Positions 65-12,003 of a DNA stretch of 12,003 nt are shown here, piece by piece. Position 1 is the first letter of the stretch; each line of letters opens with the position of its first letter. The stretch is from Desulfuromonadaceae bacterium (lineage in GTDB: Bacteria > Desulfobacterota > Desulfuromonadia > Desulfuromonadales > Syntrophotaleaceae): NCBI GenBank assembly GCA_021107335.1, contig JAIOSZ010000044.1, forward strand, positions 1-12,003, in the 5' to 3' direction. Under the pieces are notes generated by a model that was given only the letters and a program-made list of their open reading frames with translations, did not search any database and had not been told where the DNA came from. Both the position numbers and the translations under genes were made by a program.

Positions 65-814
65 GTGGACCATTTTCGTTTTACAGGGGGGCATATGGAA
101 CTCTTTTTAGAAGTTTTTGAAAAGATGGAGCGCCAGGGGCCAGGGAGTGCCGAATCGACCCTCCGCGCCTTCAGCTCTATCCCGAATAAAAACCATATCG
201 AAACGATTCTCGATATCGGTTGTGGCAATGGGGCTGCAAGCCTGGCCTTGGCAAGTGCTTGCAAAGCAAAAATAACGGCGGTGGACAACCACACACCGTT
301 CCTGGAAAGCCTGAAAAAAGAAGCGGCTCGCCTCGGTTTTGCCGAGCGCATAGAAGCGGTCAACGCAAGTATGTTTGAGCTGCCCTATCCCGACGAAAGC
401 TTCGATTTGCTCTGGGCGGAGGGGAGTGCCTACATCATAGGGGTCGAGAAGGCTCTGCGTGAATGGAAACGCCTGATTCGTGATGGCGGCTACCTGTTTG
501 TCAGCGCCGCTGTGCTTCTGACCGAACATCCCTCCCCCGAGTGCGCCGAATTTTGGGAGACCGAATATCCAGGAATCAGTACCACGGAAGGACGTTGCCA
601 ACTCGCGAAGGAGTTTGGATACAGGATTCTCGGCTCCTTCACTCTGCCCCGCAAGGACTGGACAGCCTTCTACACCGACATGCTTCAACAAGTCGAAGCG
701 GCCATGGAAAAGCACGGCTCAAGCCAAGCCTTTGAAGACATGAAAAGGGAAATCCGAGTCGCCAATCTCTATGGCGACGAGTTCTCCTATGTCTGCCTGA
801 TGCTGCAAAAGTGA
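65..814 (+). CDS. Class I SAM-dependent methyltransferase
   Basis: Predicted cytosolic methyltransferase of about 249 residues that would transfer a methyl group from S-adenosylmethionine to an unknown acceptor. Motif I is clear (DIGCGNG, residues 50-56). An acidic residue that should contact the SAM ribose follows at D74 in AVDN. A motif near 106-117 (LPYPDESFDLLW) matches the usual LPFxDxSFD pattern, and GGYLFVS (141-147) is the post-motif strand. The N-terminal helix with RQGPGS (23-28) is typical of one group of small-molecule or unassigned methyltransferases. The start is uncertain: GTG at 65 keeps the extra residues MDHFRFTGGH, while ATG at 95 has a G-run (85-91) very close upstream. 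It converges with the ATPase gene and ends at the shared hairpin at 881-916. Family assignment is firm; the substrate is unknown. Confidence 0.9.
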   Translation: MDHFRFTGGHMELFLEVFEKMERQGPGSAESTLRAFSSIPNKNHIETILDIGCGNGAASLALASACKAKITAVDNHTPFLESLKKEAARLGFAERIEAVNASMFELPYPDESFDLLWAEGSAYIIGVEKALREWKRLIRDGGYLFVSAAVLLTEHPSPECAEFWETEYPGISTTEGRCQLAKEFGYRILGSFTLPRKDWTAFYTDMLQQVEAAMEKHGSSQAFEDMKREIRVANLYGDEFSYVCLMLQK

Positions 815-880
815 ATTGCCCCCAGGATCCTAGTCATTTTTGATTCATTAGGTGTCTAGCAAGTCACCACATTTCAGACA

Positions 881-916
881 GGAAAAGCCCGCCAGGCAAA
901 CTCGGCGGGCTTTTCC
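881..916. terminator. Bidirectional intrinsic terminator between convergent genes
   Basis: A perfect 13-bp stem (GGAAAAGCCCGCC at 881-893 with its complement at 904-916) encloses a 10-nt loop, AGGCAAACTC. Because the stem has a G+C core flanked by A4 and T4, either transcript forms a G+C hairpin followed by a U-run. That suits a terminator serving both the methyltransferase (+) and the ATPase (-). A diverged copy with the same loop occurs at 5401-5442. Confidence 0.8.
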
Positions 917-989
917 CATATTGCAGGACCTATGGGACTGAAAGGCTAACTTTAAGGACCAGGAAAGGGGCATAGGCACCTCATGCCGC

Positions 990-3749
990 TTAGGAGGGCC
1001 TTCCTGGAAACACTTTTCCAACCCTGCATCTGTTGAGAATTTTGAAAAGTTCCATGATCAGCAGCAACGACAAGGCCAGTATCAGCATGCTAAACCACTG
1101 AGTCATGGTGACAGGGGCCACTCTGAGAACCTTCTGCATCAGTGGCAGGTGCATGGCCAGGAGGTGCACGCTCTGGGCCACCAGCACGCCGCCGATCAGT
1201 AGCCGGTTGCGACGAAAGGGAACACCAAAAGCCGAGATACGCTCCGAACGGCAGTTAAAAACATGGACGTTTTCCAAAAGAACCATCAGCAACAGGATCA
1301 GGTTGCGGGCGGCCACCTCCTGCCACCCCGTCTGGATCAGCCACCACCAAGTGGCGAACGCCGTCAAGCCCATAGCCAGCCCGGAAACGATAGTTTGCTG
1401 CACCATCAACCGATCAAATATCCCTTCCGAGGGGCACCTCGGCGGCTTCTCCATGGCCCCTGGCTCCCCGCCCTCGAAGGCCAGGGCTACGTCCTGAATA
1501 CCGTTGGTTACCAGGTTGAGCCAGAGCAGTTGCACCGCCAACAGAGGCAGCGGTAGGCCGGTGCAAAGAGCCAAGGTGAAGAGGGTGATTTCGGCCGCAC
1601 CGGTGGAAATGAGCAGATAGATCACCTTGCGGATGTTATCGTAGGCAAAGCGCCCTTCCTCGATCCCTCCTTCGATGGAGGCGAAGTTGTCGTCGATAAT
1701 GATGAGGGAGGCGGTATCCTTAGCCACGTCGGTACCCGAGCCCATAGCGACTCCGATGTTCGCTCTGCGCAGGGCCGGGGCATCGTTCACTCCATCACCG
1801 GTGACAGCGACAAAATGACCGAGCCGGCGCAAGGCATCGACGATGGCCAGCTTCTGCAGGGGGGTCACACGGCTGAAGACCGTGGCCCCTTTAACCCTCT
1901 CCAGAAATTGAGGGATCTCGGCGGAACCAATCTCCTCCAATTTGCTGCCGGTAACCATCTCACTACTACTGCCGGCAATCTCAAGTTCCCGGGCAATACT
2001 CAGGGCCGTCGCCGGATGATCGCCGGTGATCATGACTACCCTGACACCGGCCCGTTGACATTTCGCTACGGCTTGCTTGGCCTCGGGGCGCAGAGGGTCG
2101 ATGAGCCCGATCAGGCCCAAGAAGCAGAGAGGCGGGATCGCCTGCTCGTCCAACTTCGCCGAGCCCTCCCCTGCCAAGATGCCGTGGCCCACGGCGATAA
2201 CTCGAAAGCCCCCTTCGGCCAACGCCTGGACCTCGTCGCCGATGGTCTCGGGGACGAGGGGGACTGTCCCGGTCTGGATCTGCATGGTGCTGCAGAAGGG
2301 CAGGATGGCTTCAGGCGCACCTTTGACCGCGACCTCGATAGTGCCGTTCTGACGGTAAAAGCGGGCTGCGTATCTGTGCTCCGATGCGAAAGGGATATCG
2401 TGGAGGATTGCGGCTTCGGCAGCAACTGTTGTAGGGTGCAGACTCATTTTGTAGCCCAGGGCCAAAAGGGCCACGTCCACAGCATCGCCCTGATGTTCCC
2501 ATACCCCGCTTTGCTCGGTCAGGCTGGCTTCGTTGCATAAAACAGCAGCCTTGGCCAATCGTTCCAGATTACGGCATTCGGCAGACTCCGGCTCCTCTCC
2601 TTCAGTGGTGGTAACCCGTCCGACTCCTGCGTAGCCTTCTCCGCTAACAGCATAGATTTTCCCTCCGGGCAGCCCGACCACCTTCGCGGTCTGTTTGTTG
2701 ACCGTCAGGGTCCCGGTTTTGTCGCTGGCGATGCAGGTACAGCTCCCCAAGGCCTCAACCGCTGTCAACTTGCGGACGATCACCTGGCGCCGTGCCATAC
2801 GTGCCGTGGCGATGGACAGGGCGACGGTCATGGCCACCGGCAAACCCTCTGGGATGGCCGACACTGCCAGGGCGACCGCCATGAAAAACACCTCCACATA
2901 GGAAAGGCCCTTGGCGATAGAGATCGCCGCCAGCACGCCGATGAAACCGAGCACCAGATAACTAATCTGGCGGGCGAAACCTTCCATGCGGATCAGCAGC
3001 GGTGGTTTGGTCGTCTCGGCCAAGGTCACCGCCTTGGCGATCTGACCCACCTCGGTGCGCAACCCGGTGGCGATCACCACCCCCCTGCTGCGACCGGAAC
3101 TTACGGTGGAACCGGCAAAAGCCATGTTGCTGCGCTCGCTCAGTGGCAGATGCTCGGGTAGCCGTTCGGTCTGTTTAGCGACCGACTGGGACTCGCCGGT
3201 GAGCAGCGATTCATCGATGGTCAGATTGTGCGCTTCAAATAGGCGCAGGTCCGCCGGGATACAGTTGCCCTCTTCCAGCAGGACCACATCCCCTGGCACC
3301 AGGTCCTCCGCGGCAATTCGCTTCTTACCCCCATTCCGGAGAACCAAGGCATAGATCCGCAGCAGACTCTGCAGGGCACCGGCACTCTGTTCCGCCTTCC
3401 ACTCCTGAAAAGTGCCGAGTCCGGCGTTGAGGAGGATGACCGCGAAGATAAAGAAGGCATCAGTCGCTTCGCCGATAAACAGGGAGACGCTGCCGGCCGT
3501 CAGTAGAATGTAGATCAGGGGGCTGAGAAACTGATGCAGGAAAATGGTGACGATTCCGGGTGGCTTCTTCGCGGGGAGACTGTTGGGGCCGAACTCCGCC
3601 AACCGCTCGGCAGCCTGTTCTTCGCTCAAGCCCTCGCGGCTCGACTGAACCTTGACAAAGACCGCACTCGCCGCCAGCGGGTGCCAGACGATGCCCACCT
3701 CCCCTTCAGTAAAGACATCTTGTTGCGTAAGCCCGATGTGGTTTTTCAT
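990..3749 (-). CDS. P-type cation-transporting ATPase (P2A/Ca2+-ATPase-like)
   Basis: Integral inner-membrane ion pump of 919 residues, the normal size for P2-type ATPases. Residue numbers below start at the ATG at 3749. In order: N-terminal cation-ATPase domain (about 20-62); M1/M2 (about 67-112); actuator domain with TGES (184-187); M4 with AIPEGLP (298-304); phosphorylation motif DKTGT with catalytic D343; nucleotide-binding KGAPE (476-480); TGD (575-577); hinge GDGVND (651-656); then six C-terminal membrane helices. The catalytic machinery looks complete. Against SERCA, the M4 Glu (E301), M5 Glu (E720) and M6 Asn (N745) are kept, but the M5 Asn is Gly and the M6 Asp is Asn (N749), so the ion is uncertain. 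The open frame extends to a TTG at 3893, but GGAGGGG just before the ATG at 3749 marks the likely start. The gene stands alone and ends at the shared terminator. Confidence 0.93.
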   Translation of the reverse strand: MKNHIGLTQQDVFTEGEVGIVWHPLAASAVFVKVQSSREGLSEEQAAERLAEFGPNSLPAKKPPGIVTIFLHQFLSPLIYILLTAGSVSLFIGEATDAFFIFAVILLNAGLGTFQEWKAEQSAGALQSLLRIYALVLRNGGKKRIAAEDLVPGDVVLLEEGNCIPADLRLFEAHNLTIDESLLTGESQSVAKQTERLPEHLPLSERSNMAFAGSTVSSGRSRGVVIATGLRTEVGQIAKAVTLAETTKPPLLIRMEGFARQISYLVLGFIGVLAAISIAKGLSYVEVFFMAVALAVSAIPEGLPVAMTVALSIATARMARRQVIVRKLTAVEALGSCTCIASDKTGTLTVNKQTAKVVGLPGGKIYAVSGEGYAGVGRVTTTEGEEPESAECRNLERLAKAAVLCNEASLTEQSGVWEHQGDAVDVALLALGYKMSLHPTTVAAEAAILHDIPFASEHRYAARFYRQNGTIEVAVKGAPEAILPFCSTMQIQTGTVPLVPETIGDEVQALAEGGFRVIAVGHGILAGEGSAKLDEQAIPPLCFLGLIGLIDPLRPEAKQAVAKCQRAGVRVVMITGDHPATALSIARELEIAGSSSEMVTGSKLEEIGSAEIPQFLERVKGATVFSRVTPLQKLAIVDALRRLGHFVAVTGDGVNDAPALRRANIGVAMGSGTDVAKDTASLIIIDDNFASIEGGIEEGRFAYDNIRKVIYLLISTGAAEITLFTLALCTGLPLPLLAVQLLWLNLVTNGIQDVALAFEGGEPGAMEKPPRCPSEGIFDRLMVQQTIVSGLAMGLTAFATWWWLIQTGWQEVAARNLILLLMVLLENVHVFNCRSERISAFGVPFRRNRLLIGGVLVAQSVHLLAMHLPLMQKVLRVAPVTMTQWFSMLILALSLLLIMELFKILNRCRVGKVFPGRPS

Positions 3750-3955
3750 GACCCCTCCAGCCCAGCCGCCGAAATGCTCCCGGTCGTGCTGGACGATCTG
3801 TGAACCCCAACCTGCCCCCCATCGTTGTCGTTGCGCAGCCCCTGGTCCGCCTCGGGGGAGAAGAACTCGGCAAGCACGGCAGGATCGAACCAAAGCCGGT
3901 CCTTGACCAGGCTGCGGCAGGGGGCTGCGAGATGAAGCGCTTCATGGGCAGCCCC
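3746..3955 (-). pseudogene. Possible 3' remnant of an unknown gene upstream of the ATPase
   Basis: A minus-strand frame runs through this stretch and ends in a TGA that overlaps the ATPase ATG as ATGA, the classic arrangement of translationally coupled genes. Its reading includes SLVKDRLWFDPAVLAEFF, which looks protein-like, but I do not recognise a family. Upstream of about 3957 the frame runs antisense through IS3 transposase sequence, so any real gene would have been cut there by the IS. The C-terminal part is low-complexity and may be non-coding leader. On the plus strand the same DNA could instead be a badly degraded N-terminal part of the transposase. Low confidence. Confidence 0.2.
3751..3758 (-). 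promoter_or_regulatory. Shine-Dalgarno fixing the ATPase start
   Basis: On the minus strand GGAGGGGT lies immediately before the ATG at 3749, with 4 nt between GGAGG and the start codon. This favours the 919-residue protein over the version extended to TTG at 3893, whose extra 48 residues look unlike a P-type ATPase N-terminus. Confidence 0.7.
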
Positions 3956-3956
3956 C

Positions 3957-4401
3957 AAGGGGATCTGTATCTGACTGCCATCAAGGATCTCTGGAATCGC
4001 GAGATCGTCGGCTACGCCATGAGTCATCGCATGATGCAGGATCTGGTCGGACGAGCCCTGTTTCGTGCTGTGACGGCCAAGCGCCCGCCTGCCGGTTTGA
4101 TCCACCACTCAGCCAGCATTGCTCGCTGAGTTACCAGGAGCTGCTCAAGCAGTTCGGTAAGGTGCCATCCATGAGTCGCAAGGGGAGCTGTTACGACAAT
4201 GCTCCGATGGAAAGCTTCTTCGGCCCACTCAAGACCGAACTGGTTCAGCACCGGAAATACCGCACTCGCCAGGAATCGATGGCTGAGATCTGCGAGTATC
4301 TTTAAGTATTCTACAACCGGCAGAGGAGATATGCCAGCCTGGGAAACATTTCCCCAGCGCCATTTGAGAGGAAATACTTCAGTTGGCAAGGAGCCGCTTG
4401 A
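3957..4401 (+). pseudogene. Decayed IS3-family transposase (orfB, DDE integrase core)
   Basis: The translation starts inside the catalytic domain (GDLYLTAIKDLWNREIVGYA) and continues to PPAGLIHHS near 4110. The frame then changes: the usual HHSDRGSQ is read as HHS, then SQHCSLSYQELLKQF in the -1 frame. This fits loss of about 10 bp at about 4111, including the catalytic Asp of DRG. Downstream, MSRKGSCYDNAPMESFFG retains the third acidic residue, but TAA at 4303-4305 interrupts EYL-VFYN where a Glu codon is usual. The tail (SLGNISPAPFERKYF) ends at TGA 4399-4401. The N-terminal half and orfA are missing. The gene cannot make an active transposase. Confidence 0.85.
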
Positions 4402-4412
4402 CAAACATATGG

Positions 4413-4437
4413 TGTCCACTATTGAGGACCGACCTCA
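4413..4437. repeat. Right terminal inverted repeat of the decayed IS3 element
   Basis: Just after the transposase stop, read from the outer end inward on the minus strand, the sequence begins TGAGGTCGG and ends GTGGACA. This matches the usual pattern of IS150-like IS3 termini (TG at the tip, GTGGACA at the inner end). The matching left repeat is not found to the left of 3957, so that end of the element has been lost. Confidence 0.6.
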
Positions 4438-4737
4438 GCCCTTAGGCTCATATTTCTCAGCCAAAGCGGGACAATGGGCACTTTCTTACATTTATCGTCC
4501 TGTACAATCTACGCTAAAAATCGACTCACAAAACTTTGACTTGACATGCCACATGTGTAGAATTGAAGAGACATTAATTTTCGGGAATTGGATTTGCGGT
4601 TACAAAGGCAAACGCTTGACTTTTCTAGAAATTGATTAAATTCTATGGATTTTTAAGTATAGAAAAGTGCCCGTGGTTACACGGTTTACATAGACCGCCT
4701 AGTAACAACTGGGCCCTTAATGAAAATGAGATGAAGT
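4438..4737. other. A+T-rich intergenic region upstream of psiE-like gene
   Basis: About 300 bp without a convincing gene. One frame is open across part of it, but it is only the continuation of an unrelated frame over the dead transposase. The base composition becomes strongly A+T-rich here, matching the following gene rather than the ATPase side. A promoter-like pair is listed separately (4536-4563). A second TTGACT lies at 4616-4621, but its downstream hexamer is poor. Confidence 0.5.
4536..4563 (+). promoter_or_regulatory. Candidate sigma70-like promoter for the psiE-like gene
   Basis: TTGACT (4536-4541), then 16 nt, then TAGAAT (4558-4563). It is oriented toward the gene at 4738 and would give a leader of roughly 165 nt. 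This is only a consensus match in A+T-rich DNA, where chance matches are common. Confidence 0.3.
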
Positions 4738-5208
4738 ATGAATGAAGAAAAAAACAACAATTCTATTCATGAGCCTGGTCACGATCTTCATCTTGAGCAC
4801 GAAGACCCTACTATTCGTATTCTACATAGGATAATCCGTATTGCAGTAAAAATACTCGCTATACTAATGGTTGTTGTTATCGTATGGGGCATAGGAGATG
4901 TGATCTACGTTTTATATAAACGTATTATGGAGGAGCCTTTTCTTTTATTGAGCATAAGTGATATTTTTGAGACATTTGGTGCGTTTTTGGCTGTGCTAAT
5001 TGCGATTGAGATATTTGTAAATATAAGTATGTATTTGTCTACGAACGTAATACCAGTAAGGTTAGTAGTAGCAACTGGATTGATGGCCGTTACACGTAAA
5101 GTAATAATTTTTGATTTTGACAAAATAGCACCTCCATATGTTTTTGGAGTTGCTGCGGTAGTTCTTTCTCTTGGTCTTACCTATTGGCTGATTACAAAGC
5201 GAACCTGA
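4738..5208 (+). CDS. PsiE-family (phosphate-starvation-inducible-like) membrane protein
   Basis: A 156-residue inner-membrane protein with four hydrophobic segments at about 36-60, 74-98, 105-118 and 132-152. The N-terminus is hydrophilic and rich in His, Glu and Asn. The block FETFGAFLAVLIAIEIFVNI (78-97), followed by STNVIPVRLVVATGLMAVTR and a third block around KVIIFDFDK, is characteristic of the PsiE family (PF06146). The biochemical role of the family is unknown; in E. coli psiE was found as a phosphate-starvation gene. The ATG at 4738 has only a weak purine-rich stretch upstream. The gene is alone, A+T-rich and flanked by IS remnants, which suggests a separate origin from the G+C-rich left block. 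I see no Pho box that I could defend. Confidence 0.85.
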   Translation: MNEEKNNNSIHEPGHDLHLEHEDPTIRILHRIIRIAVKILAILMVVVIVWGIGDVIYVLYKRIMEEPFLLLSISDIFETFGAFLAVLIAIEIFVNISMYLSTNVIPVRLVVATGLMAVTRKVIIFDFDKIAPPYVFGVAAVVLSLGLTYWLITKRT

Positions 5209-5456: not shown

Positions 5457-5537
5457 TGACCTCCCCCCAGAAAATAGGACAAGTCAAAACTGGAATTTTC
5501 GGGCAAAATGAACCTTTGGGAGAGGAGACGTTTTGCC

Positions 5538-5804
5538 ATGAAGAAAACAAAATTCACCGATGAGCAGATCGCGTTTGCGCTCAAGCAGGCAGAGACGGGA
5601 ACCAAGGTGGCTGAGGTTTGCCGGAAGATGGGGATCTCGGAAGCCACTTTCTACAATTGGAAGAAAAAGTATGGTGGCCTTGGTGTCAGCGAACTGCGCC
5701 GGTTGAAGCAACTTGAGGAAGAAAATCGGCAGCTCAAGAAGCTGGTAGCCGATCTAAGCCTCGACAAGCAGATGTTGCAGGATGTACTGTCAAAAAAGTT
5801 CTAA
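5538..5804 (+). CDS. IS3-family transposase OrfA (helix-turn-helix subunit)
   Basis: An 88-residue DNA-binding protein that recognises the ends of its own IS. KFTDEQIAFALKQAETGTKV (5-24), then EVCRKMGISEATFYNWKKKY, is the classic HTH_Tnp_1 helix-turn-helix. It is followed by a leucine-zipper-like coiled coil (about 54-80, LKQLEEENRQLKKLVADLSL) used for OrfA/OrfAB multimerisation. The ATG at 5538 is chosen because homologues begin MKKTKFTDEQI-like and AGGAG lies about 10 nt upstream. An in-frame ATG at 5508 precedes that motif. The gene ends FAA-style at TAA 5802-5804, just past the slippery A6G site, and overlaps the OrfB frame. Confidence 0.92.
   Translation: MKKTKFTDEQIAFALKQAETGTKVAEVCRKMGISEATFYNWKKKYGGLGVSELRRLKQLEEENRQLKKLVADLSLDKQMLQDVLSKKF
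5792..5798 (+). other. Programmed -1 frameshift site (A AAA AAG)
   Basis: The heptamer AAAAAAG is phased A-AAA-AAG in the orfA frame, ending four nucleotides before the orfA stop codon. A -1 slip moves ribosomes into the orfB frame (K-V-L-K-P-A-Q) with no stop before OrfB, giving an OrfAB fusion of about 375 residues. This is the usual way IS3 elements make active transposase. The phasing is seen directly; use of the site is inferred. Confidence 0.8.
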
Positions 5805-5827
5805 AACCAGCCCAAAAACGCCGCCAG

Positions 5828-6664
5828 GTGGATCGCCTTGAAATGGCCTATCGCATTGGCAAACGCAGGGCCTGTGAGGTCGTGGGCCTGCAACGCTCGG
5901 TCTACTACTATAAATCGGTCAAGGATGATCGTGTTCTGCGGCAGCGTATCTGTGAGATTGCCACGACCCGGATTCGTTACGGTTATTTGCGGATCCATGT
6001 GCTGTTAAGACGTGAGGGCTGGCACGTCAACCATAAGCGGGTTCATCGAATTTATTGTGAAGAAGGCCTGAACCTGCGCCAAAAAAGACCGAGGCGCCGC
6101 GTGGCTGCAGCACATCGCGTACAGCGACCCGCAGTCTCTAAGATTGATCAGTGTTGGTCCATGGATTTTGTGGCCGACAACTTGTTTAATGGCCGCCGAA
6201 TCAGGGCCTTAACTGTCGTCGATAATTTGAGTCGTGAATGCCTCGCCATCCATGTGGATAGGGCAATTAAGGGGAAGCAGGTCGTTCAGGTAATGGAAAG
6301 ACTGCGCCTTTTTACAGATCGCTGCCCTGAAAGGATCCAGGTCGACAACGGCTCGGAATTCATTTCCAAGGATCTGGATAAGTGGGCGTACGAAAACGGA
6401 GTCACTCTAGACTTCTCCAGGCCGGGAAAACCGACAGATAACGCCTTGATTGAGTCGTTCAACGGAAGCTTTCGCGATGAATGCCTCAACACCAATTGGT
6501 TTCTTTCAATTGACGATGCCAAGAAAAAGGTCGATGCTTGGCGAAGAGATTATAATGGGTTTCGCCCGCATTCATCGCTGGGGAATTTAACCCCGGAACA
6601 GTTCCGGGAGCAACACATAGGAAGCCCGAAATCCCTACATTTGATCTGTCCTGGTTACGGGTGA
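5828..6664 (+). CDS. IS3-family transposase OrfB (DDE integrase core)
   Basis: This is the catalytic part of the transposase, normally made as a frameshift fusion with OrfA. The HTH_21-like region lies at about 35-95 (IRYGYLRIHVLLRREGW). The rve/DDE core follows with D113 in WSMDFVAD, D173 in QVDNGSEF and E209 in DNALIESFNG, with 35 residues between the second Asp and the Glu, as expected for the DD(35)E family. The tail HSSLGNLTPEQF is typical of the IS407/IS2-like branch. The GTG at 5828 is only the first possible internal start; the frame is open from the slippery site at 5798. No stop or frameshift is seen, so the element appears capable of making active transposase. Confidence 0.92.
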   Translation: MDRLEMAYRIGKRRACEVVGLQRSVYYYKSVKDDRVLRQRICEIATTRIRYGYLRIHVLLRREGWHVNHKRVHRIYCEEGLNLRQKRPRRRVAAAHRVQRPAVSKIDQCWSMDFVADNLFNGRRIRALTVVDNLSRECLAIHVDRAIKGKQVVQVMERLRLFTDRCPERIQVDNGSEFISKDLDKWAYENGVTLDFSRPGKPTDNALIESFNGSFRDECLNTNWFLSIDDAKKKVDAWRRDYNGFRPHSSLGNLTPEQFREQHIGSPKSLHLICPGYG

Positions 6665-6720
6665 GGCTCACGAAAGTCGGAAGCTCTACTTTACAATTGT
6701 CTACTTGACGGGGAAGCTTA

Positions 6721-7311
6721 CGATCCCAGGTCGCTAAATTGATTGGCTTGAATCGCAATACAGTCAATCGCTATCTAACCAAAATCAGGCAGCGCTTGGC
6801 TGAGTATTGCAATGCTCAATCTCCTTATTCAGGAGAAATCGAAGTTGACGAATCGTTCTTCGGTGCACGTCGCGTCAAGGGCAAAAGGGGCCGTGGTGCA
6901 GGCGGTAAAACAATCGTATTTGGCATCTTTCAACGGAACGGTCATGTCTATACGGAGATCGTTCCAGATTGCTCCAAGGCCACATTGCAAGCGGTTATAC
7001 GCGGAAAAGCAGAGCTTAAAAGCATTATCTACTCAGACGGTTGGCGTGGCTATAACGGTCTGGTCGATGTTGGTTATGGTAAGCACTTTCGTGTCGAGAA
7101 CGGCAAGGATGAGTTTGCCAAAGGTCGTAACCATATCAACGGAATTGAAGGCTTTTGGGGCCACGCAAAAACAAGGCTCGTTCGCTTCCGTGGTATGTCG
7201 CCAAATACCTTCAACTTGCATCTGAAAGAATGTGAGTTTAGATTCAATCATAGAGGCCAGGATCTCTGTCGTTTGGTCCTTAGTATTTTGCGAAATCAAC
7301 CTCTAAACTAG
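6721..7311 (+). pseudogene. 5'-truncated IS1595-family (ISXO2-like) transposase
   Basis: The open frame begins in mid-domain, directly at the right end of the IS3 element, with SQVAKLIGLNRNTVNRYLTK, an N-terminal helix-turn-helix. The ISXO2-like DDE domain follows: GEIEVDESFFG (first Asp), IIYSDGWRGY (second Asp) and GRNHINGIEGFWGHAK (the conserved Asn/Glu region). It ends with FRFNHRGQDL and a stop at 7309-7311. The core is intact, but the first few dozen residues usual for the family, including any zinc-ribbon-like start, are missing. A TTG at 6739 is the only in-frame start-like codon and has no good ribosome site. The missing 5' part is not found to the left of the IS3 element, so this is not a clean insertion. 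Confidence 0.8.
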
Positions 7312-7347: not shown

Positions 7348-8712
7348 CTAACCTGAAGCAGAGTTAGACTTGCTTAACTTTCTCTGCAGCCGAGCATTCT
7401 CCAACTGCATCTGCGCAAGCTGCCCTTGCAATTCCGCAACTTGCCCACGCAACTGACTTTCAACAGTCCCCTTATACATATCCTCTTTACCATGAGTGTA
7501 TGCCGCTTCGCTGGCCGCTGCAGAATGGCCCAACTTCGGCATCAGATCTAGGACAACCGATTCTGGATCATTTGAAAACCCCAGTTTTTGTCTGGTCTGG
7601 AGAATTTCAGTAGCGCTTTCCTTTCCAAACTTTCTTCTGATGCTGTGTCCCCCAGAGCCTTTTCTTAGCCCTATCGCTTTAAATCCGTCTGCAATAATCC
7701 GCGAAATACGTTTATTTCCCAGGGGCCTACCAGTAGTAAAGCCAATAAAAAGATGCCCTTTCGCTTTTTCCTCTCCGACGCCTAGCCGATCCAAAGTTGA
7801 CTGTCGAACGCCCTTGATGAAATTTGCGATCCTTATTATTAACTGAAGTTTCACATCGTAAGCAGTCTGATAGCCAAATTTCTGCTCAGGCGGCGTAACC
7901 AGGATTTCGCGTTTCCCTTGCACCAGCGCCGCGTCAATGACTTCTTCTGAAAAGTGTTCCACCAAAAGGCTACGCACGCTTCCGCCCCGCCAACCTACAT
8001 GCTCAATAATATCTATAATCAGGACGTTCCTCTCTGCCGTCAGCGGATCGCAAAACTCCCTGAAATATCTCCGCAGCCGAATCAACTCGTCGTCGGTTGC
8101 ATAATGCTGCCTTTTGTGCTTCGACCTTGCTCCTGTTCTTCTAAAGCAAAGCGGATAAATCGTCTTCTTGGCTTCACCTTTCTTATCAAATGCCTCAGGG
8201 TCTTTCATATAATCAGGCAATTTGCTTCGAATAGGTGCTGTAGGCCACCCCATCCAACCTTCCATCAATGCCTGAATTTCTTGTGCCCACCAGTAGAATT
8301 GATAAATGGCCCTTAGTTTTATGTTGACGGTCTGCTGTGCTGTCTTTTCGGTTCGACTGCTACTCCTACCCTTTACATTAGACAGCTCCCAAGCCTTATA
8401 TTCCTCTAGATCGCTGTCCTCTATCTCTTTCCAGGACTTCCCTTTTACTCGCAGGTAGTCGCAAAAAGACTTCAGGGAATAGGCCACCATCTGAATTTCT
8501 GAAAGATATGCCTGCTCGTTGTCTGCAGTATTATCATGACTCGCCAAATGTTTTTTTGCCATATAAAGCGCATACTGGGAAAGCTCTATCATGAGCTTAA
8601 TTTTCTCATCAAAGAAAAGCGGCACATCTCGATTTGGCACATAAGGCGCCCACACTATCTTGATCGGGTATATCCGTCTTAGATCAAGTGTCTTAATCCC
8701 TTTTCCCCCCAT
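7348..8712 (-). CDS. Tyrosine recombinase / phage-type integrase with C-terminal coiled coil
   Basis: A 454-residue site-specific recombinase. An N-terminal SAM-like core-binding region lies at about 65-150, followed by a catalytic domain at about 205-410. The catalytic set is complete: R242 (GWRGG), K278 (PPEQKFG), H356 and R359 (GGHSIRR), H396 (LGHS) and nucleophile Y405 (AAYTHG). An extra tail (about 418-448, SQLRGQVAELQGQLAQMQLE) has Leu/Gln heptads predicted to form a coiled coil, which suggests a partner or multimerisation. The start ATG lies 10 nt after the RecJ-like stop, and an SD-like AGGGGA overlaps that stop, so it is the last gene of a three-gene operon. It is much larger than XerC/D and is not adjacent to a recognisable tRNA or att site here. 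Confidence 0.92.
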   Translation of the reverse strand: MGGKGIKTLDLRRIYPIKIVWAPYVPNRDVPLFFDEKIKLMIELSQYALYMAKKHLASHDNTADNEQAYLSEIQMVAYSLKSFCDYLRVKGKSWKEIEDSDLEEYKAWELSNVKGRSSSRTEKTAQQTVNIKLRAIYQFYWWAQEIQALMEGWMGWPTAPIRSKLPDYMKDPEAFDKKGEAKKTIYPLCFRRTGARSKHKRQHYATDDELIRLRRYFREFCDPLTAERNVLIIDIIEHVGWRGGSVRSLLVEHFSEEVIDAALVQGKREILVTPPEQKFGYQTAYDVKLQLIIRIANFIKGVRQSTLDRLGVGEEKAKGHLFIGFTTGRPLGNKRISRIIADGFKAIGLRKGSGGHSIRRKFGKESATEILQTRQKLGFSNDPESVVLDLMPKLGHSAAASEAAYTHGKEDMYKGTVESQLRGQVAELQGQLAQMQLENARLQRKLSKSNSASG

Positions 8713-8722
8713 AGATCATCCC

Positions 8723-10510
8723 CTATTCGGCAACACCAAGGACCTTGAGTTGGAGTGTTCTATTGCCCCTAAAAACATTATCAGAAAGCATATAAACAAA
8801 AGTGTTGGCGGCCCCCACCTTAACGGGCATTTCAATGCTGTCCTCGTCTACAGCGAAGAACCAAATGGCTTTATACACTATGTTATCCATTCTGAGTTTC
8901 AACTGAAGGTGTGAACCATCTCCAACCTTCTTCACATCAAGCACCGTAAACTTCCCTCGAAAAGACGGATATGGGAAGTCCTTGCCCCAAGGGTCTAACG
9001 TCATCAACTTATCTACCGTTTCCAATGTCAGATGCACAGCATCTAACTCACCGTCTACCCACAGGATTGGCTTGAGGGATCTGGCGCCCACTTGAAGACT
9101 GATCGCTTCCTCATACGCTACGCTAAACTGAGCAATATCATCTATTGAAAGAGTAGCACCAGCCGCGCCCGCGTGTCCTCCAAACCCTACCAACAAGCCT
9201 TTATGATTATCTGCCACATGCTGTAATGCTTCTCTGACATGGATCCCATCAATGCCCCTAAATGATCCACTGGCTAGGGCACTGCCATCCTTTCCGGTTA
9301 CTTTGTTTTGGTCTCCGTTACGCGCACCCGCCCCTTTCGGCGAAAAGATAGCGGCAGGTTTCCCATACGCTTCAACGACCTTGCTCGCGGTAATCCCATG
9401 AACTCCGCTGTGTCCATCGTCAATGAACACAACGATAGAATTCCCTTCAATCTCTCTTGCCGCCGCAAACGCTCTTCGTCGAACCCCCCTTTCTATGTCT
9501 TTCCTTAAAGAGTTTTCCTCCTTAAGAATTTTCCACTGTTTACGCGCTGCACTAATATCCTTTTCAACTAAAAAATGAAAGCCGACATCTGCCCAATCAA
9601 GTCTTCCCGCAGCAGCAACCGTTGGTGCCAAATTGAATGCAATGTGTTCTGAGCACACCTCAGTCCCGATTTCCTGCCGAAACACCTTCCAACACGCTCT
9701 CTTTTCGCTGTTGATTAGTGCAAGCCCACGCTTTACCATTGCGCGGTTGATGTAACTCTTGTCTGGCCTCAACGCGACACAATCCGATATTGTCGCCACG
9801 GCTACGTAATCGATAACATCCACTAAGCTTGGAATCTCAGGTCGATAATTTTTCTCAAGAAGCCTCGTCCGCACTTTAGCCATTGTAAGGAAGGCAACAG
9901 CCGCCCCACAAACAAAGCGGTCATACTTTGAGTCGAGTCTTGCTGGATTAACTACCGCGAAAGCAGATGCTGGCGGCCCTTCCACCGGAACCGCATGATG
10001 ATCTGTAACGACAACGTCCTTCCCCGCTTCCGCTATCTTTCTAATCCTCTCTTGATCGCTACTTCCTTTATCTGCCGAAATAACCAATGTGGCATCGGTT
10101 TCCAATATCCGTTCAACCACAGGTTCAGTAATTCCATACCCCTCAGTAAGCCGATGGCTAGTGACTACAGACAGATTGTTAGGGTCTACTCCAAAATGAT
10201 CTACGAGTGCTGACCACAAAACAGATGCCGCTGATATACCATCGAGATCGTGGTCGACCGCAAGAATGCAACGCTCTCCCCCTTCGATTGCCTTGACAAT
10301 ACGATCAACTGCTTTATCCATGTCCGGGATACAGATTGGATCATCAATCTTCGCAACTGATGGCTGGAACAAGGCTTCTACACTAACGCTCTGTTCAACT
10401 CGTTTTGCTACCAGATCCGCTAACCAAGGCTCGACACCTTCTCTAACCAAATCTTCAAAAACACAATCTATCCGCTGACGCGCCCGCACCTCTGGAACCG
10501 GTCGTACCAC
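8723..10510 (-). CDS. RecJ-like single-strand DNA exonuclease (DHH family)
   Basis: A 595-residue DHH/DHHA1 phosphoesterase, close to the usual RecJ length. RecJ degrades single-stranded DNA 5' to 3' using Mn2+/Mg2+. Visible motifs: motif I VDHDLDG (85-91, D86/D88/D90), metal ligand D147 in ISADKGSS, DHH (170-172), D243 in ISDCVAL, AAAGR (299-303), and the DHHA1 signature GGHAGAAG (444-451). The region from about 475 to the end fits the OB-like C-terminal domain. All metal-binding residues appear intact, although ADKGSS replaces the more usual VDCG-type sequence. The start is GTG at 10510, supported by AGGAGG 4 nt upstream. It lies 30 nt after the helicase gene and 10 nt before the integrase gene. 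It is probably not the housekeeping recJ, given this context. Confidence 0.9.
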   Translation of the reverse strand: MVRPVPEVRARQRIDCVFEDLVREGVEPWLADLVAKRVEQSVSVEALFQPSVAKIDDPICIPDMDKAVDRIVKAIEGGERCILAVDHDLDGISAASVLWSALVDHFGVDPNNLSVVTSHRLTEGYGITEPVVERILETDATLVISADKGSSDQERIRKIAEAGKDVVVTDHHAVPVEGPPASAFAVVNPARLDSKYDRFVCGAAVAFLTMAKVRTRLLEKNYRPEIPSLVDVIDYVAVATISDCVALRPDKSYINRAMVKRGLALINSEKRACWKVFRQEIGTEVCSEHIAFNLAPTVAAAGRLDWADVGFHFLVEKDISAARKQWKILKEENSLRKDIERGVRRRAFAAAREIEGNSIVVFIDDGHSGVHGITASKVVEAYGKPAAIFSPKGAGARNGDQNKVTGKDGSALASGSFRGIDGIHVREALQHVADNHKGLLVGFGGHAGAAGATLSIDDIAQFSVAYEEAISLQVGARSLKPILWVDGELDAVHLTLETVDKLMTLDPWGKDFPYPSFRGKFTVLDVKKVGDGSHLQLKLRMDNIVYKAIWFFAVDEDSIEMPVKVGAANTFVYMLSDNVFRGNRTLQLKVLGVAE

Positions 10511-10514
10511 TTTG

Positions 10515-10520
10515 CCTCCT
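10515..10520 (-). promoter_or_regulatory. Shine-Dalgarno for the RecJ-like GTG start
   Basis: A full AGGAGG on the minus strand sits 4 nt before GTG at 10510, within the 30-nt gap after the helicase stop. It supports the GTG start and independent ribosome loading inside the operon. Confidence 0.75.
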
Positions 10521-10540
10521 GTTCTCCACTGAATCTATCT

Positions 10541-12003
10541 TTAGTTAAAGTTTAAGCCAATAACGCGATCAAAAGCACGGGGTTGTGATGTCACTTCCCT
10601 TGTAAATACCCCTTTGTCTCCAACCAGTACCACTTGTTTCTGCGCACTGGTTATCGCCGTATACAACCAAGGGTTATCCACGATTCTGTTGTCGCCCGTT
10701 TCTGTTACAGCCACTATTACACGTTCAAATTGTGAGCCCTGTATCTCATTGCACGCAATAGCATAACCAAGAGAAATATACGCCAGATCGCCCTCATGCA
10801 CCTTCACTAGCGATCCTCTGAAATCAATCTCGGCAACGTACCGAACCTCCAGGCCGGCGTCCGTAATATCCCACATCTGACCTTCAAATATTTCTGTCAC
10901 GGTCCCAAGCATTCCATCGCAAAGGCCACGAGAATGATCATTCATCGAATGCCATACCACTGGATCACCAACTGTGATCTCTTCATTGCCGGTCAAAGCA
11001 TTACAATTTTGCAAATTTAAAACTGGTATTTCCAGCCTTTGATATTCCCGCAATTCACGATGTTCCTTATGGAGTGCCTGGTTAAGGAGGCCACAAATAT
11101 CCTTAGTAGCAGCTACAATTTGTACATCACCGTACTCTTTGCTCTCCCGATAGACCCGCAAGATATTTTGAACGGTCGTTTCAACGCATGTACTTTCAAG
11201 AAAGCTGACCCCCACCTTCCGCTTTCTAAGCCCAACAAAGTTTTCGATTTCAGGAATTGTCAGAGATCGAACTGCATTGGCTACTTGTGGAATGCCTGTT
11301 TCTAACTCTGATCGATGCGTCGTTACTAGTTCCACCTGAGGAATACGCTTTGCGCTTTCCATTGCGTGGAATACCAAGCCAGGGCCTTTTGGAAATAACC
11401 GATAACTATCTCCGATGAAACATATGCGGACAGTTCGTGGAAGCTTTTTCAGAATCCGATAGGCCACCGCCACATCCAACACGCTCGCTTCGTCGATGAA
11501 CAACCACGCGTTTTCTGCAATTCCACCCTCATCAAGTTTTTTTTGAAACTTGACAATACTTATTGGTTTAATTCCTATGATTTCATGCCTACTATTCGTT
11601 GCGGGACCAGTCGAAGCTAGCAAGAAAATGGTGGCCCTATCCCCAATTTGATCAAAGATCGCATTTAAAACATGAAACTTACCAACACCGATCCCCCCAA
11701 AGATACAACTTACGGGGCTTTCAAATACCGTCCGTACTGCCTTAAGTTGCTCGGGGCTTAATGGATAACCAACCGTCTCCTCAAATTTATTGAGACGATT
11801 TTCATCAAATTCTACTGCTAGAAGAGCCGGCCATCTCTCTAACATTTTTGTTCGTTCAAGTATTTCTTTTTGGACGTGCTGCTCAACTACAAACGCCCAC
11901 TTTAGTTGAACTAAGTCACGGCCCTCCCATTCAACGATTCGATCCTGACAAGTCGCTAATGCATCCTCAATCGGAACTTGCGCCCCCAGCAATTCTTCAA
12001 CAC
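10541..12003 (-). CDS. RecD/RecD2-like SF1B helicase, partial, with altered catalytic motifs
   Basis: The frame is open to the window edge (V-E-E precede the TTG at 11992), so the N-terminus lies outside. Numbering here starts at that TTG. The order matches RecD2: Q-like motif LSPEQLKAV (78-86), Walker A region GGIGVGKF (99-106), motif II DEAS (167-170), motif III GDSYRLFPKGPG (194-205), an SH3-like VGDPVVWHSMND (341-352), and the motif V/VI region AIACNEIQGSQFERVIV (411-427) with YTAITSA (444-450). Relative to RecD consensus, the Walker A Ser/Thr is Phe106, GDPxQLPPVG is GDSYRLFPKG, HKxQG is NEIQG, and TAITRA is TAITSA. ATP hydrolysis may be impaired or specialised. It is the first visible gene of the operon with the RecJ-like nuclease and integrase. 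The fold is clear; activity is uncertain. Confidence 0.85.
   Translation of the reverse strand, partial: VEELLGAQVPIEDALATCQDRIVEWEGRDLVQLKWAFVVEQHVQKEILERTKMLERWPALLAVEFDENRLNKFEETVGYPLSPEQLKAVRTVFESPVSCIFGGIGVGKFHVLNAIFDQIGDRATIFLLASTGPATNSRHEIIGIKPISIVKFQKKLDEGGIAENAWLFIDEASVLDVAVAYRILKKLPRTVRICFIGDSYRLFPKGPGLVFHAMESAKRIPQVELVTTHRSELETGIPQVANAVRSLTIPEIENFVGLRKRKVGVSFLESTCVETTVQNILRVYRESKEYGDVQIVAATKDICGLLNQALHKEHRELREYQRLEIPVLNLQNCNALTGNEEITVGDPVVWHSMNDHSRGLCDGMLGTVTEIFEGQMWDITDAGLEVRYVAEIDFRGSLVKVHEGDLAYISLGYAIACNEIQGSQFERVIVAVTETGDNRIVDNPWLYTAITSAQKQVVLVGDKGVFTREVTSQPRAFDRVIGLNFN

Follow-up and report, generated by a model that had tools for sequence, protein, structure and literature searches.

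Introduction

In Pseudomonas putida KT2440, a 65-kb island resides within tmk, and its dNMPK PP_1964 was genetically shown to be the thymidylate kinase of this strain (PMC10653934). The authors present the island as a first-case example and describe standalone dNMPKs that replace tmk elsewhere (PMC10653934). A homologue of the target gene is also found in Tn552-II, a 9-kb tnpABC transposon with a target-gene-like gene (tgl), for which rescue of the target was suggested by its authors, who did not test it (PMC12486829). Two further groups are close by their architecture. GInts, called Tn6571-family transposons in a survey of defence islands (PMC10121019), are defined by the four-gene ginABCD operon for three integrases and a small HLH protein (PMC5385486). 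Strand-biased circularizing integrative elements (SEs) carry intA, tfp, intB and srap, have a median length of 15.7 kb and imperfect inverted ends of 13-19 bp with a 6-bp spacer, and are described from Gammaproteobacteria only (PMC10214605). Here, we analyse a stretch of 12,003 bp (the window) from a Desulfuromonadaceae bacterium, which is the entire contig C32 of the metagenome-assembled genome (MAG) G000 (2,177,878 bp in 351 contigs, 67% complete) and encodes a RecD2-like protein, a RecJ-like nuclease and a tyrosine recombinase (INT) in a row. Our analysis makes it likely that this trio belongs to the operon by which an integrative island located in the housekeeping recJ gene would recombine, and that the RecJ carried by the island replaces the broken gene.

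Results

The trio forms the downstream end of a seven-gene operon

The three open reading frames (ORFs) of the trio all lie on the minus strand with intergenic gaps of 10 and 30 nt, which confirms the grouping put forward by a first-pass annotation of the window:

7348..8712, minus strand: INT, tyrosine recombinase of 454 aa, final gene of the operon (catalytic residues, fold, G119 homologue)
8723..10510, minus strand: RecJ-like DHH nuclease of 595 aa, the island's own RecJ (DHH, DHHA1, RecJ_OB)
10541..12001, minus strand: RecD2-like protein, 486 aa, truncated at the 5' side where the contig stops (AAA_30, AAA_19, UvrD_C_2)

The annotation had also credited each downstream gene with its own Shine-Dalgarno-like sequence. 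By eye, AACAGGAGG precedes the GTG start of the RecJ-like gene as proposed, and the site ahead of the recombinase gene, GGGGATGATCTATG, is weaker.

The same trio in the same order is present in G119, a same-genus relative with a complete chromosome (single contig, 3,218,469 bp) that is probably Syntrophotalea acetylenivorans; protein identities amount to 84, 93 and 82% for INT, the RecJ-like and the RecD-like protein, respectively. In G119, the trio closes a seven-gene, same-strand operon encoding a recombinase-like protein of 615 aa, proteins of 814, 223 and 133 aa, the RecD2-like protein, the RecJ-like protein and the tyrosine recombinase, so that the extent of three genes given in the annotation does not hold. 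We refer to the four genes ahead of the RecD-like gene as A, B, C and D. The 615-aa protein shows a weak phage-integrase match (18.5 bits, under the cut-off), and no significant Pfam match was obtained for the 814-aa protein.

A profile of the recombinase matched four of the 136 genomes of the order (G000, G119, G024 and G069). Within a phylum sample, it matched one of 395 genomes, the window's own; rarity of the recombinase in the phylum is only suggested by this number, because the sample was without G119, G024 and G069 and at most four candidates were scored per genome. In nine of 25 recombinase clusters, the longest contig equals in bp the longest contig of a RecJ-like cluster, which is an indirect sign drawn from 120 of 583 RecJ matches. 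From this coincidence and from the conserved order in G119, we judge the co-occurrence of the trio to be more than chance.

The island interrupts recJ within its catalytic motif

In G119, the TIGR00644 profile matched recJ positions 2-65 at 1,065,776-1,065,967 and positions 63-546 at 956,050-957,483, with the RecJ-like gene in between. Compared to the intact recJ of G121, the two pieces cover residues 1-93 and 92-571. Hence, ~108.3 kb are inserted within the housekeeping recJ of G119, at the codons that specify its catalytic DYDVDG motif. The recJ start, located after genes read as secD and secF, directly precedes the 615-aa gene, and the island consists of the operon at one end, ~97 kb of other DNA and an AT-rich other end. 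One end reads GATTAC-GATGTT followed by TTATGCTACAATCCCT and the opposite end reads AGGGGTTGTATAATAA followed by GATGTG-GATGGC, i.e., imperfect inverted ends around a 6-bp spacer.

In G000, contig C110 carries recJ from the same codon onward, joined to a near-identical island end; the N-terminal half of recJ was not found in this MAG. The sole complete RecJ found in G119 and in G000 is the RecJ-like protein of the island, which is ~31% identical to the host recJ. In G121, a genome near G000 (synonymous divergence (dS) of 0.12 over the C-terminal part of recJ), recJ is intact. Between G000 and G119, dS amounts to 0.39-0.57 for island genes and 1.28 for the host recJ. Because the island genes show the lower dS, this pattern fits a horizontal spread of the island into the same site.

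Islands with related operons break other genes

Four further islands were found via the recombinase profile or protein, regardless of RecJ: those of G024 and G069, of the Alteromonas plasmid pAMCP48-600 (two Alteromonas plasmid records matched, of which this one alone was analysed) and of Methylibium RPME01. By blast, A, B, the RecD-like protein and INT were matched in G069 and Alteromonas. For G024, this was the case for B, the RecD-like protein and INT, while A was assigned from place and size alone; the INT gene of G024 contains an internal TGA. In Methylibium, A, B and INT were matched, and D and the RecD-like gene are absent. RecJ is absent from all four operons, and recJ is intact in G024 and G069.

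In G069, pfkA is broken after GGGDCP and its C-terminal part follows ~35 kb further on. A complete phosphofructokinase (PFK) of 364 aa, 49% identical, is encoded just inside the end at the C-terminal part, and the spacer GTCCAG is identical at both ends. In G024, an EF-P gene is broken between residues 84 and 85, and a full EF-P of 186 aa is encoded right after INT, showing 82% identity to the N-terminal half and 70 and 77% to two C-terminal pieces. In Alteromonas, nrdB is interrupted close to its 3' end by the island, which has a complete nrdB, with yfaE behind it, adjacent to the break. In Methylibium RPME01, the plasmid dcd is split by the island (L101 6960-7169; L236 around 12600-13200), and a second dcd location was not found in that record. 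A gene annotated as dCMP deaminase family, with ComEB-type matches under the cut-off, follows INT and is a possible non-orthologous replacement for dcd. Taken together, the broken gene has a homologue on three of the four islands without RecJ and a possible analogue on the remaining one; by a rough estimate from island genes over genome genes, a homologue is expected by chance in ~1% of such islands.

Further islands within recJ

In G525, recJ positions 3-63 and 61-545 are ~44.6 kb apart, again at the codons of the DYDxDG motif. The RecJ-like gene is near the N-terminal half of recJ, and a four-gene operon (440, 508, 821 and 122 aa) occupies the opposite end, with the 508-aa protein being a Pfam phage integrase. 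In G538, the N-terminal part of recJ extends to position 268, and behind it lie matches for A, B, C, the RecD-like protein, an AAA_33 piece and INT; the C-terminal part starts at position 266 beside the RecJ-like gene on a different contig. G526 contains the C-terminal part alone, adjoining the RecJ-like gene at the same junction. The recJ gene of G108 is interrupted within the codons for DHH, and its halves are ~22.9 kb apart. The interval holds a four-gene operon (429, 515, 722 and 147 aa) and a full RecJ of 563 aa, which scores like the housekeeping type (439 bits) and is placed with housekeeping RecJ in the tree. The operons of G525 and G108 are distantly related to each other and show the GInt layout. 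A complete RecJ is encoded by the recJ islands of G525, G538 and G108 alike.

Over the first 20 positions (ungapped), the ends agree at 13 positions in G119 and in G069, at 11 in G525, at seven in G108 and at five in G538. The 6-bp spacer could be assigned clearly for G119 and G069 and by eye in the others. It differs between target and copy in G119 and the window, G069, G024 and Alteromonas (by eye). We considered whether recoding protects the island copy from the island's own recombinase; this is not upheld as a rule, as G108 shows the same spacer in target and copy (by eye). Pieces of recJ in G038, G073 and G101 were set aside because of their position at contig ends. For G1083, there were three RecJ matches (best 1.7e-103), which may represent a further split recJ with a RecJ-like copy; this genome was not counted. 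Partial or broken recJ matches are also present in G025, G029, G017, G673, G590, G757, G851 and G898.

The RecJ-like protein is the only RecJ found in several lineages

Among 17 genomes of unstated completeness with a RecJ-like gene (L009-L025), 13 have no other RecJ match and three contain a split or partial recJ; in the remaining one (G534), another partial match close to the start of a contig may be a housekeeping recJ. In the order of the window's genome, six of 136 genomes encode the RecJ-like protein, namely G000, G119 and all four genomes of a single family (G097-G100); an intact housekeeping recJ is absent from each of the six. Of the 136, 118 match above the TIGR00644 cut-off, a number that includes the G108 island copy as well as the C-terminal halves in G000 and G119. 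The order to which G525 belongs was matched in 366 of 399 genomes, 360 of them above the cut-off. G525 is the only recognised RecJ-like holder among the matches listed for this order, of which 22 weak or multiple cases were re-examined. Among the matches listed for the family of G526 (187 genomes), the RecJ-like gene is present in G525, G526, G530 and G538, with G1083 as a possible case. In L011, the RecJ-like gene follows genes read by eye as tgt, yajC, secD and secF, which is the place of recJ in G119 and G108, and in L009 it is located behind the genes for homoserine dehydrogenase and threonine synthase.

A tree of 75 rows separates the RecJ-like proteins from housekeeping RecJ with full support, albeit with a long-branch warning. 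The first-pass annotation had counted it against its own reading if the RecJ-like gene were the only recJ of the genome and grouped with housekeeping RecJ. The outcome is mixed: the gene is the sole complete recJ found, the housekeeping gene being broken, but it groups apart. Island-linked and sole RecJ-like copies are intermixed in the tree and at least five state changes are needed, a pattern that would fit repeated domestication, the direction of which is left unset by the tree. RecJ genes of large Xanthomonas and Dyella plasmids (36-37%) were set aside, as they have a different context and are sister to the RecJ-like clade. A phage origin was also rejected; in viral contigs, the recombinase alignment gave no relative, and the nine RecJ relatives were at most 30% identical.

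Domains, motifs and selection of the trio proteins

The RecJ-like protein matches Pfam DHH, DHHA1 and RecJ_OB above the gathering cut-off and reaches 349.5 bits against the TIGR00644 equivalog, under the curated cut-off of 396.9. The residues of its DHD.DG and TDHH motifs are invariant in 43 homologues. By its domains and catalytic Asp and His, it is predicted to be a RecJ-type DHH nuclease. Between the window and G119, the ratio of nonsynonymous to synonymous divergence (dN/dS) is 0.095.

INT gave no match to Pfam. R242 does not vary across 20 homologues, in which H356, R359 and Y405 are conserved to at least 90%; the later H (LGH) is replaced by Q in some homologue rows and is H in the window. 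An AlphaFold model with a mean predicted local distance difference test (pLDDT) score of 86 matches the fold of integron integrase, XerH and Cre. Thus, INT is a tyrosine recombinase by its fold and by its catalytic R, H, R, H/W and Y. Its dN/dS between the window and G119 is 0.15.

The window part of the RecD-like protein scores 162 bits against TIGR01448 (cut-off 500), with a dN/dS of 0.22 between the window and G119. Walker A reads GKF in the window and CKS in G119; in both, HK of motif V is changed to NE and the arginine of motif VI to serine (TS). The RecD-like protein of G538 keeps Walker A, has lost HK and the motif VI arginine and shows DD in place of DE, while those of G024, G069 and Alteromonas keep all motor residues in question. 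Judged from these residues, the RecD-like proteins of the window and G119 do not have the intact superfamily 1B (SF1B) motor motifs that define RecD2, and they are probably structural or regulatory. In G119, the RecD-like protein has 855 aa with HHH_RecD2 and an N-terminal AAA_33 domain. This kinase-type P-loop domain is fused N-terminally in G119 (L072 7747-10314) and forms a separate piece between the RecD-like gene and INT in G538 (L135 18563-18889).

A proposed role of RecJ as replacement for the broken gene

We propose that INT and the A protein, as the operon's tyrosine recombinases and with B as their partner, would have made the insertion by recombining the island ends in a manner similar to that of SEs, GInts or Tn554; insertion would kill the target gene, and the carried gene would rescue the host by supplying the lost function. 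This agrees with the suggestion of the first-pass annotation that the trio is the core of an uncharacterised integrative element, as it lies in the recombination operon, and the ends of the island can be defined. The annotation further envisaged that the element processes its own DNA ends, and RecJ and the RecD-like protein might indeed be working parts of transposition that, e.g., resect a copy-out intermediate, with the insertion into recJ being coincidental. Such a role would suit the position of the RecJ-like gene, which the operon holds between INT and the RecD-like gene at distances of only 10-30 nt. We regard it as unlikely and the claim of end processing as not upheld, since RecJ is missing from the four related operons, where PFK, EF-P, NrdB or a deaminase is found instead, since the RecJ-like gene is at the opposite island end in G538 and G525, and since the RecD-like protein of the window has a degenerate motor with residues lost. 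Because the related islands break pfkA, the EF-P gene, nrdB and dcd and carry a homologue or, for dcd, a possible analogue, we conclude that RecJ is probably a replacement for the broken gene and not a general part of the island's recombination machine.

Alternatively, the target copy could be a passenger or an aid to homologous recombination, its function being unneeded. The hosts of the plasmid targets may hold another copy, and the EF-P copy of G024 is close to its target (82%); the RecJ-like protein is too distant from the host recJ for use as homology, is under strong purifying selection and is mostly found in genomes without another RecJ match, which makes this explanation quite improbable for us. 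A defence module against invading DNA, the other role offered by the annotation, is extremely improbable. Here, PADLOC matched the RecD-like protein to RecD-type and helicase-type models, and the same islands contain, as cargo, genes resembling the cyclic oligonucleotide-based antiphage signalling system (CBASS); but PADLOC returned no match for the RecJ-like protein or INT, the trio sits at the recombination end of the island, the RecD-like motor is degenerate, and metabolic genes stand in for RecJ in the sister islands.

Several observations weigh against replacement of the broken recJ and against its extension to the other targets. In the MAG, the operon (C32) and the recJ junction (C110) are on separate contigs and the N-terminal half of recJ is missing. 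The C-terminal half of the host recJ keeps an open frame and shows no relaxed selection, perhaps due to a recent insertion. G024 retains a second EF-P gene, 36% identical. The gene carried by the Methylibium island is an analogue and not a homologue of dcd, and since a plasmid carries the target in both Alteromonas and Methylibium, a further copy may exist on the host chromosome. Moreover, the recJ islands beyond G119 and G000 came from RecJ searches and are thus a biased sample.

Other genes of the islands

The remaining genes of the window lie on the other side of the operon end, and we consider them probable cargo, as inferred for the IS1595-family gene from its side of the operon:

65-814, plus strand: methyltransferase-like gene, probably cargo
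990-3893, minus strand: P-type ATPase gene, probably cargo
4738-5208, plus strand: PsiE-family gene, probably cargo
5508..6664, plus strand: IS3-type transposase genes, two ORFs, probably cargo (Pfam HTH_Tnp_1, rve)
6739..7311, plus strand: IS1595-family transposase gene, probably cargo (Pfam DDE_Tnp_IS1595)

The 65-5208 side of the window showed no nucleotide match to the G119 island. The IS3-type and IS1595-type transposase genes are adjacent to each other beside the operon end (window 5508-7311), and an IS3-like ORF with a very similar start (by eye) is present inside the G119 island at 991204-992049. As judged by PADLOC, the CBASS-like genes of C110 (L095 956-4329) are an adjacent set of nucleotide cyclase, E1-E2 and JAB genes, and in the G119 island the cyclase and the E1-E2/JAB pair are ~75 kb apart (L071 587-1630 and L090 8257-10529). 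Behind INT, the Alteromonas island contains reverse transcriptase and regulator genes (L235 35704-36973), with a type I restriction system further on.

Discussion

As described for the tmk island, the islands reported here split a core gene, carry tyrosine recombinases and would supply the lost activity, and standalone substitute copies in other strains are common to the tmk system and the RecJ-like protein (PMC10653934). In the tmk island, unlike in these, there is a single target, the substitute is non-orthologous and its function is genetically proven (PMC10653934). Self-complementation of this type would apply through a homologue to recJ, pfkA, the EF-P gene and nrdB, and to dcd through an analogue only. 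Tn552-II similarly carries a homologue of its own target; it differs as a 9-kb tnpABC transposon (PMC12486829). With GInts, as they are described, the islands share an operon at one end, large cargo, an AT-rich other end and imperfect border repeats, and the operons of G525 and G108 also share the layout of two or three recombinase-like genes with a small gene (PMC5385486). The tripartite structure of operon, cargo and AT-rich 3' end is present in G119, and the four-gene ginABCD arrangement is not that of the window and G119, where, compared by description, seven genes include RecD-like and RecJ-like ones and the target is broken (PMC5385486). As in SEs, one end of the islands bears several genes of recombinase type, and their imperfect inverted ends and a 6-bp spacer that can vary between the ends would also be SE-like, whereas the intA-tfp-intB-srap set and the gene number, again compared by description, differ from the operon of the window and G119 (PMC10214605). 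Among the open-licence PMC papers listed in searches for recJ-site and replacement-carrying islands, none besides the one on tmk had a title or abstract on this family. The operon family and the breadth of targets appear new, with the tmk island as the one published case.

Beyond the window, we lean, by a small balance of the evidence, towards a widespread class of multi-recombinase islands that target the most conserved motifs of core genes, carry a swappable replacement and drive the displacement of core genes, here recJ, in several lineages. Integration into conserved motifs would give such islands many hosts, and decay of the rest of an island would leave the foreign gene as the only copy of the host.

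Integrative elements are usually thought to spare their host by choosing tRNA genes, the ends of genes or dispensable genes as sites. The islands with related operons described here instead disrupt core genes, at or close to catalytic codons, and bring a replacement. If this replacement is needed, loss of the island would be costly, and the island would act as an addiction device without a toxin. Foreign homologues may also come to displace core genes along this path, the RecJ-like protein being the only RecJ found in several lineages. One case has been solved experimentally, tmk in P. putida, and the rule can now be tested across recJ, pfkA, the EF-P gene and nrdB.

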